From: a virus
Strand: one strand, 5' to 3'
Length of the DNA stretch: 24,154 nt
Virus record (IMG/VR): IMGVR_UViG_3300030106_005863
Coordinates: 1 to 24,154 of that record
In this document: in pieces, positions 3,062 through 15,744 of the stretch
How the letters are laid out: each line of letters begins with the position of its first letter
Numbering within the stretch: position 1 is the first letter of the stretch
Notes under the pieces: generated by a model
Databases searched by the model: none
Seen by the model: the letters and a program-made list of their open reading frames with translations, nothing else
What the model was told of the DNA's origin: nothing
Position numbers and translations under genes: made by a program

Positions 3062-3707
3062 TTTGTAAGTTTTTTAATATTTGTTTTGCTTTTTCATGAC
3101 TTGATAATCTTTGCATAAGTTTTGAATCAATTTGAGTTTTTTCTTTTCTCATATTTTCCCAATTTCGAACGGCGGCTTTCCAATTTTTCATTTTATTTTT
3201 TCCAACCATCCACCCCTTGCTTTCATAATAATCGAAAAATCTTTGAGCTTCAATATTGTTTTTTCTTTCTAAACAATAATTTTTTATATCTTCAATTTTT
3301 GGTTTTTTAAACCTATTTTTGTTATTAACTGTATTATTAAGTATTGTATTATTTACTTTATCATTTTCTAAATACCCCCCTTTAGTTTTTTTAATACCCT
3401 TATCGCTTTTATTATATACCCTATTTAATTTATTAACCACCCTAATTTTTCGAGCAATAATTATTTTTCCATCTCTTTCAAATTCAATTGATATTAAACC
3501 CTTTTTTTCAAGTGCATTTATTACTTGAGAACATCTTCCTTTTGTTATTCCAAAAAACTCTGAAAAGTATTTGTTTGAAGCATAGCAACAAGATTCATTA
3601 TCTAAAGAATCAATTTCAACTAAAAATATTTTTTCAATTAATTTTAGCTCATTATTTAGCCAAATTTCTTTTGGAATCCAAATTCCTTTAAAATCTCTAT
3701 TTTTCAT
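3051..3707 (-). CDS. DnaD-like replication initiator
   Basis: The protein has 218 residues and two domains. Residues 5-90 form a winged helix typical of phage replication initiators (IWIPKEIWLNNELKLIEKIF, a SNKYFSEFFGITKGRCSQVI recognition region, then the wing). A low-complexity Asn/Lys linker at about 95-135 follows. The C-terminal part holds AQRFFDYYESKGW and NWKAAVRNWE (about 154-184), the same end signature as DnaD/phage replisome-organiser proteins. Such proteins bind the phage origin and recruit host helicase. No polymerase or helicase gene is visible here, so this is probably the main recruiter of host replication. It overlaps the methyltransferase gene by 4 bases. Confidence 0.75.
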   Translation of the reverse strand: MKNRDFKGIWIPKEIWLNNELKLIEKIFLVEIDSLDNESCCYASNKYFSEFFGITKGRCSQVINALEKKGLISIEFERDGKIIIARKIRVVNKLNRVYNKSDKGIKKTKGGYLENDKVNNTILNNTVNNKNRFKKPKIEDIKNYCLERKNNIEAQRFFDYYESKGWMVGKNKMKNWKAAVRNWENMRKEKTQIDSKLMQRLSSHEKAKQILKNLQNGN

Positions 3708-4360
3708 TCAAATATTGTTTTTTGTTTTATATTTTGTTTTTTAATTATTCCAAGCATTGCTTCAAATATATTTTTTCCGACTTCATAATCAATTGTATTT
3801 CTTGCAATTTTAACTCTGCGTTGATTACCTTTATATTTTTGAAAATCAAAATTATGAAATATTGACAATGATTTTATTTCTTGTTTCATCTCGCACATTA
3901 TCCCATTAGTTTTTCTAATTTTTATATTATTTGGAATATTAAAATTTGACCAATATAAGTGGCGACCTCTTTTTTTACCTTGAATTAATGGAGGGTAATA
4001 AGGTAAAACATTTTCAACAACATATTTTCCTGAAAAAAAATTATCTAAAAAAATTATTTCTTCGTAAAGTTTTAAATCAGGATATTTTGGAATGAAAAAA
4101 GATCGGTTTCTTTGAGATGCTCTTATTTGTGAATGAGTAGGACAAGGAGGTGAACTCCAAATAAAATCATAATTTTTATAATTTTTTATCAAAAAATCAT
4201 GAGCATCTGTAACAATTACATTATCACTGGGAAATCTTTCTTGATATAACCTTGCACATTCAGGATCAATTTCTATTGCCGTTACTTTAATATCATTTTT
4301 TATTTCATTCCATTTATATCGATTCCCACCAATACCCGCATATAAATTTAATATTTTCAT
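3704..4360 (-). CDS. DNA (cytosine-5) methyltransferase, short phage type
   Basis: The motifs appear in the usual order: SAM-binding motif I LNLYAGIGGN (4-13), E30 of motif II, catalytic Cys motif IV SSPPCPTHSQ (69-78, nucleophile C73), motif VI VENV (115-118) and a QRRVKIARN segment (180-188) in the place of motif VIII. At 218 residues it is well below the 300-400 typical of cellular Dcm-type enzymes, with little room for a target-recognition domain. There is no partner restriction enzyme, so it is an orphan enzyme, likely protecting phage DNA from host restriction or marking it for control. It ends in QKTIFE, close to a bacterial sliding-clamp-binding peptide. The start overlaps the winged-helix gene by 4 bases. 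Confidence 0.88.
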   Translation of the reverse strand: MKILNLYAGIGGNRYKWNEIKNDIKVTAIEIDPECARLYQERFPSDNVIVTDAHDFLIKNYKNYDFIWSSPPCPTHSQIRASQRNRSFFIPKYPDLKLYEEIIFLDNFFSGKYVVENVLPYYPPLIQGKKRGRHLYWSNFNIPNNIKIRKTNGIMCEMKQEIKSLSIFHNFDFQKYKGNQRRVKIARNTIDYEVGKNIFEAMLGIIKKQNIKQKTIFE

Positions 4361-6878: not shown

Positions 6879-8108
6879 TTAAATAATTATTTTGAAAACT
6901 GTTTGTTTTTTGTGAACTTTATTTGCAGATTTTGAATTATATGCAGCAAGTTCTTTTTTAATATCATAACCTTTGAAACCATCTATATTTTGTAAATCAA
7001 TTCTCAGATCATGCCGACCATCTTTCAAAAAGATATAAAGGTTTTGAGCAGCTCTTGAGCTTAAATTTAAAGCGTTTTCACTATAAGCATTCGCACCAAC
7101 TAAAGATGATGATCTTGCAAACATATCCGAAATCAAAGTTTCGTGCAAATGTCCGCAAATCATAAAATCAATTTTAACTCCTTTTCTTGAATACTTTGCA
7201 ACAACAGATGATATTTTAGAAGTGTTCATTTTTCCCAGTTGATGACCATGTATCAAAAGAATTTTTTGTCCTCCTATATCAACAACCAATTCGAGAGAAT
7301 CTCCTCGTATAAAGGATATATCAGGTAAAAGCAAACGCAACATTTCAAATATTGTAAAATCATAATTATCTGAAGCAACAATATCAACCCAACCAAGCTC
7401 ATCGTTTACTCTTGATTCGTTACCCGTAACACATGCAATTGATATATTTGCAATTTGATTTAAATCTAAAATAAAATTAGATAATAAATGAACACCTAAA
7501 AAAGTAGCTTTTGCTCTATTTGTAGCCATTGCAAGTTTTTCATCTAATCGGCGATCCGAATTAATTAAATCCCCAGTAATGGCGATTAATATATTTTTTA
7601 TATTATATATATCAGCGTATTTTTTTATATAATAAGCAAATTTTTGCAACCTCTTGGATGCAATATTAAAATCATATTTATTGTGTTCTAAATCAACAAG
7701 CTCGTTGAAATGCGTGTCGGCAATATGAACAACTAAAGCCGCTTTTTCATCTGTTTTATGTGATATAATTTTAAATGAAAAGCTCTCCTTTTTTAATAAA
7801 GAAATAAGCTCTTTATTATACTCTGCTAAAGAGTTTTCAATCCTTGCATGTTCTCGAAAGGATTTGTTTTTTATGCGGTTTAAATCGTTTAATTTTTGTT
7901 TTTGTTTTTCTAAACGTACATTATATTTGACAATCTCTTTGTCTGCTAATTTAAAACGAATTGTTCTTGAAACTCGTTTTCTAACCGCTTGATTTTTTAA
8001 TGGAAGATTATGTCTATCTATGAGAATTTGAGCAATATCTCCATAATTATTGCCCAAATCCCATAAATTTGCGATTTCATCCTCATAGATATCAAACTGA
8101 ATACTCAA
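6879..8108 (-). CDS. calcineurin-like metallophosphoesterase with N-terminal HTH and coiled coil
   Basis: The 409-residue protein has three parts. Residues 1-55 look like a helix-turn-helix (LWDLGNNYGDIAQILIDRH, then NQAVRKRVSRTI); 56-110 are a charged coiled coil. From 124 comes a metallophosphoesterase: D131-x-H133, G179-D180, G229-N230-E231, H287-G-H289 and G319-H320-x-H322. Glutamate replaces the usual histidine of the GNH motif, so transition-state chemistry may be altered. The fold is that of Mre11/SbcD-type nucleases and other phosphodiesterases. It starts at TTG (8108-8106), 2 bases after the previous stop; there is no nearby in-frame ATG before the catalytic domain. It is placed last in the late operon, behind lysis genes, which is odd for a DNA enzyme. 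The substrate is unknown. Confidence 0.82.
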   Translation of the reverse strand: MSIQFDIYEDEIANLWDLGNNYGDIAQILIDRHNLPLKNQAVRKRVSRTIRFKLADKEIVKYNVRLEKQKQKLNDLNRIKNKSFREHARIENSLAEYNKELISLLKKESFSFKIISHKTDEKAALVVHIADTHFNELVDLEHNKYDFNIASKRLQKFAYYIKKYADIYNIKNILIAITGDLINSDRRLDEKLAMATNRAKATFLGVHLLSNFILDLNQIANISIACVTGNESRVNDELGWVDIVASDNYDFTIFEMLRLLLPDISFIRGDSLELVVDIGGQKILLIHGHQLGKMNTSKISSVVAKYSRKGVKIDFMICGHLHETLISDMFARSSSLVGANAYSENALNLSSRAAQNLYIFLKDGRHDLRIDLQNIDGFKGYDIKKELAAYNSKSANKVHKKQTVFKIII

Positions 8109-9017: not shown

Positions 9018-12000
9018 TTATATATCACTAATTAATAATTTTCCCCCATAAATTCGATCAGACATTGCGGTTGTAATAACTTTCACTCCAATATAATTTG
9101 TAGCATCTGAAGATGTATCTGTTACAGAAAACCCAGTCGCTCCCGTTGATCCCGTTCCAATAGTTGATCCCACACCGCTTGAATCGACATTTAAAACATA
9201 AACCTCCACATCTCTTGTTGCGTTCCCCCATACATTGCAATATGTTACTTTTTTACCATAAGGAACTTGTCTAAAAGCCCAAAGTTCTTGAGTTGCATCT
9301 TGTATTCTAACCCCCGTAGTTCCACTATCATCAAAATATATTGATCGATTAACTTTATTGTCATTTGGAATGAAATCGCTTGGAATTAGTTTTATATAAT
9401 CCATATCAACACCAACAAAAGTTCCCGTTCTACTATTCCAACCTCCAATGGTTTCTGAAGTAATTGCAAAACCTCCAACAGTTCCCATTGTTTTCCGTTG
9501 ATATTCTGTAATCAAATTCTTTTTTGATAAACCAATTACGCTTCCACTATATATGTTTCCATATAAAGTTAAAGAGTTAATTGAAATAGTTGTAGTCATA
9601 GACCAATTATCAGTAAAATTTCCTCCACTTGTTGAACCCGTAGAGGGTGGAACATAATCTGCCGCCAATGTTATTTCATATGTTGTTCCACTTCCTCTAT
9701 CCACTAAATCAAAAACATCTCCTGATTTATAAATAGCATCATACGATCCAACAACTGTTATTGATGTAATTGGACTTGTTGAAACATTAATATTTCCTAC
9801 CGTTTGAAAAGCGTAAAAATTATCAGTAATATTTGTATTTGGTGGATTAATAGCCATTCCAAGATTGGGAGTATTATCTTGAGGTAATCCAACAGAACCC
9901 GAATGCGGACCAACATGGTTGGTTTGTGTTGTTGTTGGGCTTGTGCTTGTGTAGTTTATTTCAAACATTTCAAGATCAACCTGATCAGATAATAAATCAA
10001 AAGTTCCTGAAGCAAAAACAAAATTTCCATTTTGATCAACTAATCTTCCGATTGGATTTATATATTTTAAACGTGTTCCACTTCCATCAGTTTCTTCTTT
10101 ACTATTAACAGATAAAACTGAAGTTCCTGAAAATTTATAAGATGTAACCGCTCCATTATTTAAAATTTCTTGACAAAGTAAAGTTGAGAAATTAAAGTTT
10201 CCTGAAGTGGTTTGAACACCCCATTTCCCAGTCGCATCTGTTAAAACCCAATTTGCTCCATCATACACTTCTAAAGCAGAAACAGTGTCAACATCCACAT
10301 CGCCCCAAAATAATTTCTTTACTGTATAAATATATGAATTATCATTTAAAGATAAAATATCTTCAACATTTTGAACTCCAATTGCTCCGTTTTTTACTTG
10401 ACAAAAATAGTTTGAAGAGAGATCAACATTTGGATTGTGAGGTGCGGGAACTAAAGTTCCCTGATTACTCCAATTTGGATGCCAAACGGGATAGTTCATG
10501 TTAGTCATTGTAGCTTCATTGATATAAATAGGATCAACTCCCGTTCCCCCTAAATCGTGAACGGGCCAAAATGGAAAATAATATCCAAAATTTGCAATAA
10601 ACTCGCTAACAATCCCCCCGTGTCCATTTAATACGGGAACACTTGTTGAAGATGGAGAAGATGGTGCATAATATGTTGCATAAGCAATCCATTGAAAAGT
10701 CCATGTTCCAGTAAAAGCTGAATCCGTTGGAATTGCTCCTCCTCCAATTTGACTCGCCATGATATTGATTGTTGAAGAACCTGATGGTAATTCTATTAAT
10801 TTACAAAAAGCTAAAACACCATCAGAATTTTGCAAAATAATTGAAGTCATGGGATCAACAACACCTCCCGTTGGTGCGGTGTAAGAATCCCAATATAAGT
10901 TAGAAGCCCCTGATTTCAACATATAAGTCCAAGAAGCTGATCCTTTTGGCTTAGCTCTTAAAGTGAAATTTGTCAATAAATCTTCTTTTCCTCCCGTATT
11001 ATTTACATTTAAAAATATTTGAGTAAAAAATGAATCAGCTAAAGCGGGATTTTTTATATTAATAATCTCTCCCTCTGTTATCACTTCTTGAGTAGTTAAA
11101 GAAGCATCCCAAACTCCTTCATTAAAAATTCTTGGGAAAGCAACATGATAATTGTAATTCCCAAAAGAAAGAAAATTACTTTTAACTTGTTTAATAGGAG
11201 TTGAAAAATCATAAGTTGTTCCTGATAATTTTTGCAAACCATTTGCTCCCGATCCCTCAAAATCTAAATCATAAGCTAAATTAGTTGTTCCTATGTCATC
11301 CGCAGCCGAAACAAATGTTCCGTTTTTATCATAAGTTCGTGTTGTGATATTTATAGGAGATAAGAATGTTCCGCTTTCAGAGTTTTTATATTGTGATATT
11401 TGAATAAAAAAAACAGTATTTCCCCAATAAATCATTCTCATTCCCCAAGTGATGCACATATATTCCAACACCGAAAAAATTGTGTTAGCTTCATATTTAT
11501 AATCCGCCCAATTATCATTCTCTATTTGATTATACATCATTTCAACTGTGCATCGGGTAAGGGCTAAAGGATCATCGGTTGCAGTTGTTCCTGAATGCTC
11601 TTCATTGTACCAATCAACCGCCGTTTTTATATTATAATCCGCAGAAGCTCCTTGAGTAGTTGTTGGAAAACCAATATTCGAAACCATAGTTTTCAGCCAA
11701 TAAATAAAGGTTTGAGGATCGCTTTCCATGAATGTATCCGCAATATCAAATGGAGGAAATAATGCAACATCAGGAACAAAAGATAAGTTTTTACTTAAAG
11801 CAATTCCATCAACCGCACAAAGATTAACAGTATAAGGATAAGCCAAATCTTCTTCTTTTCCTAATTCTAATAAAATAAATCCGCCCCAAATTAAATCCGA
11901 TCCTTTATATATATAAACATAAACATCTTTTTCAGAATAAGAGGATGATCTTAATTGGTTAATAAAATTCGCATCGCCCCCGCTTTGAACAATAAAAGGG

Positions 12001-12191
12001 AGTTTGCATTTAGAGGTAATTATTGGATTATACTTATCATTTGTATCTCCATTATAAGTAATATCAAATCCAGTATCGATTTTAAAATCATTCGCCGAAA
12101 CAGAGGTAGTGACATTATCCCATATTTCAACTGTGTATGTTGTTTCATTGTATGATTCAACAGTGGTGGAATATCTTTTAGTGAAAGCCAT
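9018..12191 (-). CDS. large tail-tip / host-recognition protein
   Basis: At 1057 residues this is the largest gene, and the only one between the tape measure and the lysis cassette. The first 150 residues (YTVEIWD, GFDITYNGD, IYKGSDLIWGGFILLEL, YTVNLCAVDGIALSKNLSF) have the beta-rich layout of the N-terminal domain of Bacteroidota-phage tail proteins that cap the tube. The rest is Gly/Ser/Thr/Asn-rich with many short beta segments and no coiled coil, as in adhesins and carbohydrate-binding tail tips. No lysozyme or peptidase motif is seen. It probably combines distal-tail, tail-hub and receptor-binding functions normally spread over several genes. The start is ATG at 12191. Confidence 0.75.
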   Translation of the reverse strand: MAFTKRYSTTVESYNETTYTVEIWDNVTTSVSANDFKIDTGFDITYNGDTNDKYNPIITSKCKLPFIVQSGGDANFINQLRSSSYSEKDVYVYIYKGSDLIWGGFILLELGKEEDLAYPYTVNLCAVDGIALSKNLSFVPDVALFPPFDIADTFMESDPQTFIYWLKTMVSNIGFPTTTQGASADYNIKTAVDWYNEEHSGTTATDDPLALTRCTVEMMYNQIENDNWADYKYEANTIFSVLEYMCITWGMRMIYWGNTVFFIQISQYKNSESGTFLSPINITTRTYDKNGTFVSAADDIGTTNLAYDLDFEGSGANGLQKLSGTTYDFSTPIKQVKSNFLSFGNYNYHVAFPRIFNEGVWDASLTTQEVITEGEIINIKNPALADSFFTQIFLNVNNTGGKEDLLTNFTLRAKPKGSASWTYMLKSGASNLYWDSYTAPTGGVVDPMTSIILQNSDGVLAFCKLIELPSGSSTINIMASQIGGGAIPTDSAFTGTWTFQWIAYATYYAPSSPSSTSVPVLNGHGGIVSEFIANFGYYFPFWPVHDLGGTGVDPIYINEATMTNMNYPVWHPNWSNQGTLVPAPHNPNVDLSSNYFCQVKNGAIGVQNVEDILSLNDNSYIYTVKKLFWGDVDVDTVSALEVYDGANWVLTDATGKWGVQTTSGNFNFSTLLCQEILNNGAVTSYKFSGTSVLSVNSKEETDGSGTRLKYINPIGRLVDQNGNFVFASGTFDLLSDQVDLEMFEINYTSTSPTTTQTNHVGPHSGSVGLPQDNTPNLGMAINPPNTNITDNFYAFQTVGNINVSTSPITSITVVGSYDAIYKSGDVFDLVDRGSGTTYEITLAADYVPPSTGSTSGGNFTDNWSMTTTISINSLTLYGNIYSGSVIGLSKKNLITEYQRKTMGTVGGFAITSETIGGWNSRTGTFVGVDMDYIKLIPSDFIPNDNKVNRSIYFDDSGTTGVRIQDATQELWAFRQVPYGKKVTYCNVWGNATRDVEVYVLNVDSSGVGSTIGTGSTGATGFSVTDTSSDATNYIGVKVITTAMSDRIYGGKLLISDI

Positions 12192-12251: not shown

Positions 12252-14552
12252 TTAAACATAGCGTTGTCTATTAAATTCAGCTCTTTCGGATGCAATAATA
12301 ATATCGTTTCCACTTATTCTTCCAACAACTTGGACTGTTTGTTGTCCGCTTGACATCATGCTTTTTAATTTAGATAACGGAGCAATTACTTCAGGATTTG
12401 AACTTGCTCCCGCATACTCTCCCATCAAACCAACAGTTGGACCTGAAACGATTCCTCCTTGTGCAAATGTAGGAAGCGGAGTTGATTGAATTACTCCAAT
12501 TTGTGCAGCCCCCATAGCTCCAACTACTCCCGCTAATATTATCCCCGCAAGTGCGGGTTTCATTGCTAATGCGGATGTTACTCCCTGAGCGGTGTTCATT
12601 ATAGCCCCCATTAAAGCCATTTTTTTATCCCGTTTAGCCATTTTAATTTTGATGTCTTTTTCTTTGTCTGAAAGTTTTTCATCTAAATCAATTCGATCTT
12701 GAGCGGCTTTTTCATCAAGCTCTTTAATTCTTGCATCTCTTTCGCTTTTTGTTAGAACTTCATTTTCTAAATCTGCATATCTATCTGCAATTTTATCTTC
12801 TAATATTTGTTCCTCTTTTTTTCTTGTGTTATCCATTAACCTTTGATCCTTTTGATTCATAGCACTTAATAAACCTGAAAAAGAATTAACGGCGGTTGAA
12901 ACCATAGAAATAGCATTAGTCCATCCATCGCCCCATGTTTTCCAAAATGCTTTCCATTGCTCCATCAAAGTTGGTGGAGGTTCTAAAATTTCAAGCGGAG
13001 GCGCTAAAGGTAATTTTGGAAGATTCTGAGTTGATGTTTTCGAATCTGTTTTAATATCAGAACTTGCTGATCCACCCGTTCCAACACCAAACAAACCTGA
13101 AAATTTTTGTTTTAATTTATTAAAAAACTCTCCCGCCTTGTCTGTTGCAGCATCAATATCAGATTCTGAAATAAATTTAACTTTTGTTTTTCCTTTTATA
13201 TTGTTCCAAGCGGTTGCAAAATTCTCTTTTGTATCTTCTGCTAAAGTTTCAACCGCTTGTTTTAGTTCGGGATTGTTTTCGGGATCAAATGCGTTTGCTA
13301 AACCCTCTTTTACCGCATCTTGTCCTTTCGTTATTGTTTCAGGATCAAAAGTAAAAATACCTTTTATTATATCTCCTAATCCTCCAAATAAATTTCTTAT
13401 GTTCATTCCCATCCCTTTAAGAATACTCCAACCCGCATTTGCAAAAAATTTCACATTAGCCCATAATTGTTTAAATGAAAAAGCAATAGTTTCCACTATT
13501 GTTCTAAAAACAATTGATTCATTGTATAAATCAATAAAATAATTAATTACATCAACTAAAACTTTTTTTACATAATCCCAATTCTTGACAATTACAACGG
13601 CTGCCGCAACTAATCCACCAATTACCGCTCCAATAGGAGTTAGAGCAACCGCCGCAATTTTTGAAATTTGCCCAAGAACCAATAAAGCGGGACCAATTGA
13701 AGCCGCTAAAACACCAATTTCGATAGCGGTATTTTTTACTCCTTTAGATAAGCCGTTCCAAAATTTCAATCCTCCCTTAACTAAATTCATTAATTTTTGT
13801 GCAATCGGCATTAATGCGTTTCCAATTTCAACGGCTAAATCCTCAAATTGTGCTTGAAGTAAACGAAGTTGATTTGCAAAACCCCCTGAAGTTCTTGCAT
13901 AATCTCCTTGAGCTTTTTGAGTTTGCTCCATAGCAATTTGTAAATTTGCTAATGCTTTCGCTTGTAATTCTGAAACCCCTTGCTCTTTCATAATTTGAGC
14001 AACTCGATCTTTATAATCTTTTGTGTTTTGTCTAATTACAATTCCAAGTGCTTTTGCTGATTCTGTTTCTCCAACTAATAATTTGGTTAGAGCTTTCGAC
14101 GCACCCGCGGAACCTCCTGAAAAGTTTGTGAAAGAAGCTAAATCGACCGCTAATTCATTAACTTGTTTAGATAAATCTAAAGCCGAATCTTCCGTAAAAC
14201 CAAAACCAACAAGCAAATCCCCAGTATCTCCAAGCATTTGTTTAGCAGCTTTTCCTGATAAACCAAAATCTCTTTTAAAAGTTGCAGCTACTTTTGAAGC
14301 CGTTCCTTGTATAGAAGAAAAAACTTGATTAAATTTTTGCTCTGTTTCTGCAAAATCGGAAGCTAATTTAACCGCAGTTCCACCCAACGCAACTAAAGGA
14401 ACTGTTAATCCCGCAGTCATTGTTCTTCCCGCATTTGTCATGCTTGATCCAAATTTTTTGATTCTTTTTGATGCCTTGCTCATTGCACGATTAAAACCTT
14501 GCATGTTTGCACCAAATGAGAAAGTTAAATATCCGACTGATTTATTCGCCAT
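12252..14552 (-). CDS. tail tape measure protein
   Basis: The 766-residue protein shows a TP901-type tape-measure N-terminus: FSFGANMQGFNRAMSKASKRI (11-31), then an amphipathic helical region with AETEQKFNQVFSSIQG. A set of membrane-like helices follows (about 275-325, alanine/valine/glycine-rich), then helical repeats, a proline-rich stretch (LPKLPLAPPLEILEPPP), a long charged coiled coil (about 570-650) and a hydrophobic Gly/Ala segment near the C-terminus. The protein fills the tail tube, sets its length and helps DNA entry; at about 0.15 nm per residue the tail would be roughly 110 nm. It follows the G-T chaperone gene with an 11-base overlap. The membrane-like segments probably insert into the host envelope. 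Confidence 0.93.
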   Translation of the reverse strand: MANKSVGYLTFSFGANMQGFNRAMSKASKRIKKFGSSMTNAGRTMTAGLTVPLVALGGTAVKLASDFAETEQKFNQVFSSIQGTASKVAATFKRDFGLSGKAAKQMLGDTGDLLVGFGFTEDSALDLSKQVNELAVDLASFTNFSGGSAGASKALTKLLVGETESAKALGIVIRQNTKDYKDRVAQIMKEQGVSELQAKALANLQIAMEQTQKAQGDYARTSGGFANQLRLLQAQFEDLAVEIGNALMPIAQKLMNLVKGGLKFWNGLSKGVKNTAIEIGVLAASIGPALLVLGQISKIAAVALTPIGAVIGGLVAAAVVIVKNWDYVKKVLVDVINYFIDLYNESIVFRTIVETIAFSFKQLWANVKFFANAGWSILKGMGMNIRNLFGGLGDIIKGIFTFDPETITKGQDAVKEGLANAFDPENNPELKQAVETLAEDTKENFATAWNNIKGKTKVKFISESDIDAATDKAGEFFNKLKQKFSGLFGVGTGGSASSDIKTDSKTSTQNLPKLPLAPPLEILEPPPTLMEQWKAFWKTWGDGWTNAISMVSTAVNSFSGLLSAMNQKDQRLMDNTRKKEEQILEDKIADRYADLENEVLTKSERDARIKELDEKAAQDRIDLDEKLSDKEKDIKIKMAKRDKKMALMGAIMNTAQGVTSALAMKPALAGIILAGVVGAMGAAQIGVIQSTPLPTFAQGGIVSGPTVGLMGEYAGASSNPEVIAPLSKLKSMMSSGQQTVQVVGRISGNDIIIASERAEFNRQRYV

Positions 14553-15227
14553 TTTTATTTTTTAAATTATGTTCATCTAAGTTCTTATAATATTCTGCTC
14601 TATTTTTTAACTCTTCAACATTTACTTCTTTGCCCTCCTCCCAATAAAACTTGATCAAATCTTTTGGTTTCAAAGTTTTATTTCTTGGAAGATGAATATT
14701 TAGTAAATAAGTTGTCATCCATCGAGTTCTAACCCATTCTTGTTGTTGTCTTAAATTTTCATACTCATAAAACCCATCCATTTTGATCCAAAAATGTCTT
14801 GGGATCATATCATAAAAATCTTCAACATTCATCCCCATATGTCCGAAAGCAATCCTTTCTAAATCAAGCCAAGTTAAAACATTAGTTTCTTCTTGGCTTT
14901 TTACTTTTTTCCCTTACTTCTTTTATTTCTGTTGTGCATTTGTTCTCCAAGAATTTCCATGCACTTTGTTAAAGCATCAAAATCTTCATCAATTAAATCA
15001 GATAAATCATCAATTGAAATTTCGCAAGGTTGTTTGGCTGCACGATAACCATCTTCAATTCCATAATAAACAAGTAAAAGAGCTTCATTTAATGTCATTT
15101 TATTACCTAATTTATCTAAATCAGATAATGAAGTATTTGTTGCATCACTATATTTCCTTAAAGCATTAAAACCAAATTTAATTGGATAATCCTTTTTATT
15201 TATTTTTACAAAAGTATATGTTTTCAT
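14542..15227 (-). CDS. tail assembly chaperone G-T, made by -1 ribosomal frameshift
   Basis: The frame open from 14904 down to 14542 has no stop between the slippery site and the downstream ATG at 14838. A -1 shift at A AAA AAG (14910-14904) joins it to the G protein, giving about 228 residues. The fused part reads VKSQEETNVLTWLDLERIAF and then GHMGMNVEDFYDMIPRHFW, which matches the T-domain layout of lambda-like G-T chaperones (tryptophan, F-x-x-MG, D-F-x-x-M-x-P-x-x-F). An eight-pair hairpin starts four bases after the heptamer. G-T binds the tape measure and recruits tail-tube subunits; it is not part of the virion. Starting the second frame at its own ATG would lose the conserved WLDLERIAF segment. 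Confidence 0.9.
14866..14899 (-). promoter_or_regulatory. frameshift-stimulating hairpin
   Basis: AAGCCAAG (14899-14892) and CTTGGCTT (14873-14866) are perfect reverse complements around an 18-base loop. The stem begins four bases downstream of the slippery heptamer, close to the spacing at which mRNA structures stimulate -1 frameshifting. It lies within the frame that is only read after the shift. Confidence 0.75.
14901..15227 (-). CDS. tail assembly chaperone G (zero-frame product)
   Basis: This 108-residue protein (MKTYTFVKINKKDYPIKFGF at the start) has the features of small tail-chaperone G proteins: an N-terminal beta strand pair, FNALRKYSDATN, an acidic helix region (SIDDLSDLIDEDFDALTKCM) and a basic C-terminus ending in RSKGKK. 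It lies between the major tail protein and tape measure genes, the fixed place for this gene in siphoviruses. Most ribosomes are expected to stop at TAA (14903-14901), right after the slippery AAAAAAG; a minority shift to make G-T. A large excess of G over G-T is normal for the family. Confidence 0.88.
   Translation of the reverse strand: MKTYTFVKINKKDYPIKFGFNALRKYSDATNTSLSDLDKLGNKMTLNEALLLVYYGIEDGYRAAKQPCEISIDDLSDLIDEDFDALTKCMEILGEQMHNRNKRSKGKK
14904..14910 (-). promoter_or_regulatory. -1 ribosomal frameshift slippery heptamer
   Basis: The minus strand reads A AAA AAG in the G frame, the same heptamer as E. coli dnaX, preceded by GGG so that GGGAAAA also overlaps it. The zero-frame stop TAA follows at once. 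The -1 frame continues into the T domain without a stop. Confidence 0.9.
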
Positions 15228-15309: not shown

Positions 15310-15744
15310 TTAAGAAACTGTTTGAGTTAAAGCTCCCGTTCCCTCGAAACTCATTGAATAAGTTGCAGTATCTTCTGTTCCCGCACTCACAGAGAATGAA
15401 GTTAAGAAAACACTTCCTTGATAATAAGTATCTCCAGTTGCACCACCCGTATTTCCAAATCTTACAACTAACGGAGTTCTGTTTGTTATAATGTTAGAAA
15501 GTGCTAAATCATCAGCTCCATTTGTTAAAGCAGAACCCGAAGCATCAGTCCAAGCATAAGCACCATCAATATCAATTGTGAAATCTCTTGTTGATTCTAA
15601 AGATTCTTTATATCCTCCCGATTGTTTATTTGTGATTTCTCTCAATGATAGATTCAAATTTATTGAACCATTTTGAGCAAAAGCAACAAGAATATTCGTT
15701 GTTGAATCATATAATCGAATATCCGTTCCATTAAGTATAGCCAT
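15310..15744 (-). CDS. major tail (tube) protein, TP901-1 type
   Basis: The 144-residue protein begins MAILNGTDIRLYDSTTN and has an all-beta layout with short strands and Gly/Ser/Thr turns. The conserved elements of TP901-1-type tube proteins are present: SINLNLSLREITNKQSGGYKE, the FTIDIDGAY strand, and a C-terminal YYQGSVFLTSFSVSAG with TYSMSFEGTG. It lies before the chaperone and tape-measure genes and after the neck genes. The subunits stack as hexameric rings to form the tail tube. It is short and has no added Ig-like domain. It is expected to be one of the most abundant proteins; an AT-only leader with A-runs precedes the start. Confidence 0.88.
   Translation of the reverse strand: MAILNGTDIRLYDSTTNILVAFAQNGSINLNLSLREITNKQSGGYKESLESTRDFTIDIDGAYAWTDASGSALTNGADDLALSNIITNRTPLVVRFGNTGGATGDTYYQGSVFLTSFSVSAGTEDTATYSMSFEGTGALTQTVS

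Follow-up and report, generated by a model that had tools for sequence, protein, structure and literature searches.

The tail genes considered here lie on the minus strand of a 24,154-nucleotide stretch of viral DNA (IMG/VR record IMGVR_UViG_3300030106_005863), which was analysed at its full length and is referred to below as the window. They follow each other in the order major tail protein, G, T and tape measure protein (Table 1). The 3' end of the G ORF reads AAG GGA AAA AAG TAA, with the heptamer A_AAA_AAG in the frame of G and the stop codon directly after it. The -1 frame is closed by a stop at 14916-14914 and is open from there to the stop at 14544-14542, and the overlap between the two frames amounts to about 10 nt, exactly over A_AAA_AAG and the second heptamer G_GGA_AAA. 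Because the -1 frame opens only after the stop at 14916-14914, any shift from one frame to the other is confined to the roughly 10 nt that hold both heptamers. An earlier reading of the window (the original prediction) had placed the heptamer, the stop and the -1 frame correctly almost to the base, and direct reading bears out both its overlapping GGGAAAA (14913-14907) and its -1 frame running open through to 14542. G_GGA_AAA occurs in some relatives only and is thus not the conserved slip site. The predicted G-T fusion is 228 aa long, and the T ORF counted from the ATG at 14838 is 98 aa.

Table 1. Features of the G/T junction and of the flanking tail genes (positions in the window).
Feature	Position	Strand	Details and basis
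Major tail protein	15310..15744	(-)	Directly upstream of G; phrog_1407 (E 2.8e-27), PF06199 (E 6.6e-11)
G-like tail assembly chaperone ORF	14901..15227	(-)	0 frame, 108 aa; TAA stop 14903-14901; ORF list, PHROG, fold match
Overlapping heptamer G_GGA_AAA, possible second slip register	14907..14913	(-)	Direct reading; found in some relatives only
Slippery heptamer A_AAA_AAG	14904..14910	(-)	Direct reading; 41/44 distinct junctions, G_GGA_AAG in 3/44
Stimulatory hairpin (putative)	14866..14899	(-)	Arms 14899-14892 and 14873-14866; conserved core 14897-14892 with 14873-14868; z -5.8, covariation
T domain, -1 frame after the slip	14542..14904	(-)	Stop 14544-14542; WLDLERIAF ahead of first ATG 14838; open frame, homology, codon constraint
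Tail length tape measure protein	12252..14552	(-)	Directly downstream, 11-base overlap with the end of T; phrog_991 (E 1e-22)

What G and T are had to be pieced together from several weak indications. G matches PHROG profiles for a tail protein (E 1.7e-4) and a tail chaperone (E 0.0045), while its score against Phage_TAC_12 (16.3 bits) is below the curated cut-off of 26.2, and an E value of 0.01 with the TAC profiles is attained by 4 of 45 relatives. A search of solved structures by sequence gave no match for G. Its AlphaFold2 model (pLDDT 85.7, pTM 0.80) matches a 'Tail assembly chaperone protein' in BFVD (E 5e-6, TM 0.73), with several further such matches listed. Among solved structures, a Foldseek search of the PDB with this model returned nothing significant, and the HK97 chaperone 2OB9, one of the two best, is a weak match (Z 3.6, 82 residues, rmsd 4.5). 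G resembles the HK97-type chaperones and Phage_TAC_12 in gene position and size and perhaps in its predicted α/β fold, but its sequence similarity to them is under curated cut-offs; no sequence similarity of either G or T to lambda G or T was detected. Taken together, the modelled fold, the weak profile hits and the gene order identify G as a predicted tail assembly chaperone without sequence similarity to that of lambda. T corresponds to phrog_16333, a family without assigned function whose profile starts some seven residues inside the conserved domain, and the model of the T domain is of low confidence (pLDDT 70, pTM 0.43).

Relatives collected from IMG/VR by searching with T and with a T alignment amounted to more than 80 related loci, many of them near-identical. 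They were reduced to 43 relatives which, together with the window, give 44 distinct junctions; one locus (L063) was left out, as its contig ends inside G. T lies in the -1 frame of G in every IMG/VR relative with a readable G ORF, and the heptamer is A_AAA_AAG at 41 of the 44 junctions and G_GGA_AAG at the remaining three. The original prediction had held that it would be refuted by relatives with neither the heptamer nor an open -1 frame. The opposite was found, a canonical heptamer and a hairpin being present, and T being in the -1 frame, at 44/44. In 11 other genes of the window, 4,541 codon positions hold just two in-frame copies of A_AAA_AAG, and AAG is rare among lysine codons (25/320), while Lys-Lys pairs in window genes are AAA AAA in 20 of 23 cases; AAG is nevertheless the last codon of the heptamer at all 44 homologous junctions. 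The cassette is well beyond chance. One further relative (L098, around 1880-1915) retains both elements, yet its T frame is interrupted by a TAA just past the heptamer and ahead of the T domain, which is intact downstream. This TAA sits inside the 5' arm of the hairpin (CCTAAG), which can still pair with CTTGGG via G-U, and the copy could be defective or the sequence in error. Beyond IMG/VR, no match was found when known phages were searched at the DNA level or when the G protein was compared with annotated phages.

Downstream of the heptamer, the arms AAGCCAAG (14899-14892) and CTTGGCTT (14873-14866) form eight perfect pairs around an 18-nt loop, after a spacer of 4 nt. Folded alone, 14903-14855 reaches -15.3 kcal/mol against a mean of -4.4 for shuffled sequences (z = -5.8), and none of 200 shuffles was as good. 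The perfect eight-pair hairpin four bases past the heptamer that had been claimed originally is thus exact for the window, but its two outer A-U pairs are not general across the family, in which the conserved core consists of the six inner pairs (GCCAAG/CTTGGC) and begins, in the window, 6 nt past the heptamer. Each of the 44 junctions has a perfect stem of 6-9 bp at a spacer of 4-6 nt, and in the alignment of the 44 the 6-bp core is paired in 99.6% of cells, the sole non-pairing cell belonging to a relative (L045) whose stem is offset by one base (TCCCAG/CTGGGA). Three of the six core pairs never vary and the other three change on both sides, with no one-sided changes at all. The compensatory double changes (GC to CG in 4 sequences, AU to GC in 4 and GC to CG in 8) fill 16 cells, compared with a mean of 2.4 in shuffles, and the signal is lost when the partner arm is slid. 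These counts are not independent events, as the 44 sequences come from closely related phages, though several versions of the arms exist: besides the offset stem and the form found in the window, GCCAAC/GTTGGC, GCCAGC/GCTGGC and CCCAAG/CTTGGG occur. RNAalifold recovers the identical stem unaided from the 44 sequences. The hairpin is better than dinucleotide shuffles at p<0.05 in 44/44 (mean p 0.006), and in three quarters of these sequences it also exceeds synonymous recodings of the T frame (p<0.05). An Rfam search of the hairpin region gave no family match.

Whether the -1 frame is entered from G can be approached through the segment that precedes the first possible start of T. Between the heptamer and an invariant Trp, the T frame holds no ATG, GTG or TTG in any of the 44 junctions, and its first ATG lies 11 or 13 codons past this Trp in 43 of them. 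Ahead of that ATG, the residues W, E, A and G are invariant; in the window they belong to the stretch WLDLERIAF, which, as had been predicted, precedes the ATG at 14838. Between the Trp and the first ATG, entropy by codon position is 0.49, 0.28 and 1.21, the third position being the most variable, and single-base codon differences in the T frame comprise 3078 synonymous and 1085 non-synonymous changes, compared with ratios of 484:3804 and 838:4243 in the other two frames of the same segment. Such codon constraint argues that the segment ahead of the first ATG is translated as protein. Together with the lack of a start codon before the Trp, it makes the G-T fusion a plausible product of the locus, and the slip site would evidently be the way into the T frame.

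The strongest competitor is the notion that G and T are two separate genes, ribosomes re-initiating on T or starting internally, for example at the ATG at 14838, and the A-rich stretch being nothing other than lysine-rich coding sequence. This ATG does offer a T ORF (98 aa, as given above), and in the database entries of distant relatives two proteins are annotated. It is hard to see, however, why the T frame should then evolve as protein ahead of this ATG, with four invariant residues and not a single start codon between heptamer and Trp in 44/44, and the joint conservation of the heptamer and a covarying hairpin is left unexplained. Separate translation of T was rejected on account of the constraint ahead of its first ATG, and is considered very improbable. 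The distant relatives in question are Cellulophaga phage phi39:1 (gp19/gp20) and Bacteroides phage F4 (proteins 39/38), whose T homologues are about 26% identical to that of the window and are encoded in an identical gene order. In both isolates the G and T parts are annotated as separate 'hypothetical proteins', in line with the original claim that a two-ORF annotation misses the fusion. In phage F4, T is in the -1 frame following an A-rich run.

A marginally less probable explanation is that the T frame is restored not by the ribosome but by slippage during transcription of the A run. At 41/44 junctions the site does contain 6 to 8 consecutive A's, and a run of nine serves in this way in Thermus dnaX (PMC3711429). 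The run in the window is of six A's only, though, and it shrinks to three or fewer in the three relatives with GGGAAAG, which have kept the hairpin. Moreover, this hairpin lies downstream and cannot yet have been transcribed when RNA polymerase is at the slip site. Transcriptional slippage is thus considered unlikely and was rejected as well. Finally, a sequencing or assembly indel splitting one gene, to which homopolymer runs are prone and which the odd frame offset of phi39:1 at an 8-A run might bring to mind, has a negligible probability and was rejected for the window, as the identical -1 offset is seen in dozens of separate contigs, those with GGGAAAG included. In phi39:1 itself (L023, KC821626, 3430-3460), unlike in the window, the frame of gp20 relative to gp19 is +1/-2, and the offset occurs where eight consecutive A's are followed by G AAG G, the junction reading AGA AGG TAG in the G frame. 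Either the homopolymer was misread in sequencing or the shift is genuinely -2/+1; a relative (L104, 53% identity) has T in the -1 frame.

The junction is therefore best read as a programmed -1 ribosomal frameshift signal of the lambda G/G-T type, with a probability, judged from the sequence, of about 0.95. Most ribosomes would translate gpG and terminate at the TAA. In some cases, the tRNA-Lys of the P site and that of the A site would both slip back by one base on A_AAA_AAG and pair anew, from AAA/AAG to AAA/AAA, with the hairpin 4-6 nt further on delaying the ribosome, and a minority of ribosomes would go on in the -1 frame to produce gpGT. Slippage at the site and its efficiency are inferred. 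A_AAA_AAG is the dnaX site and far more shift-prone than the other heptamers compared in E. coli (PMC5009743), and frameshifting of 6-7% has been measured for two HK97-like chaperone genes (PMC3711429). In lambda, the binding partner of G is the tape measure protein and that of T is the major tail protein (PMC5009743). By analogy, gpG together with the G part of gpGT would form a coat on the tape measure protein, the T part would bring in the major tail protein, and correct tail assembly would depend on the G:GT ratio.

The resemblance to lambda extends to the position of the locus between the genes for the major tail and tape measure proteins, the -1 direction, the slip just ahead of the end of G, the open T frame and the C-terminal location of the T domain in the fusion. 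In lambda itself, the programmed -1 frameshift of G/G-T was reportedly described by Levin in 1993 and by Xu, Hendrix and Duda in 2004 and 2013. G_GGA_AAG is phage lambda's own heptamer and is also that of three relatives of the window phage, whereas the window has A_AAA_AAG and a covarying hairpin 4-6 nt downstream. E. coli dnaX likewise has A_AAA_AAG with a hairpin downstream, but it differs in gene and purpose, and its cassette includes an upstream Shine-Dalgarno sequence. The window family has no conserved counterpart, since a Shine-Dalgarno-like stimulator upstream of the heptamer is absent in 15 of the 44 distinct junctions (the window reads ATAAAAGAAGTAAGGG ahead of the heptamer). The mechanism is thus long known in tailed phages, while the phage group itself is undescribed, and in the literature searched on tail-chaperone frameshifts in Bacteroidota phages no description of it was found.

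The group probably infects Bacteroidota, judging from the distant similarity of T and capsid to Cellulophaga and Bacteroides phages, which are among the matches of both proteins, and from an AT-rich composition. The nearest matches of portal and terminase are to Streptococcus and gut Firmicutes phages (39-45% identity) and do not settle the host. No relative of T turned up among 84,980 prokaryotic genomes scanned, which leaves no prophage by which to name the host. Occlusion of the anti-Shine-Dalgarno is the rule in Bacteroidia, yet prfB frameshifting appears to use it still (PMC8710568). It is conceivable, albeit somewhat short of an even chance, that in this uncultured group, whose probable hosts are Bacteroidota with ribosomes that largely ignore Shine-Dalgarno pairing, the signal has just two parts, the heptamer and the covarying hairpin, with no upstream stimulator, and that G_GGA_AAG can take the place of A_AAA_AAG without loss of the hairpin.

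The lambda tail-chaperone strategy would thus extend to a marine phage group without a close isolate, in which covariation now supports a stimulatory hairpin. Annotation is corrected as well, as the T part had been covered by a family without assigned function and a model starting inside the domain. The natural variants (two heptamers and several hairpin sequences) are usable for tests on Bacteroidota-type ribosomes.

Three other genes of the window deserve mention. A 1057-aa ORF at the distal tail/baseplate position (9018-12191) matches nothing in PHROG, nor anything in Pfam above the cut-off. A 218-aa protein resembling C-5 cytosine DNA methylases (3704-4360) is short or divergent, Pfam covering its N-terminal 83 residues only (profile positions 1-81 of 324). 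Lastly, a TTG-started ORF of 409 aa (6879-8108), which adjoins an M15 peptidase gene, encodes a calcineurin-like phosphoesterase that scores slightly under the Pfam cut-off.
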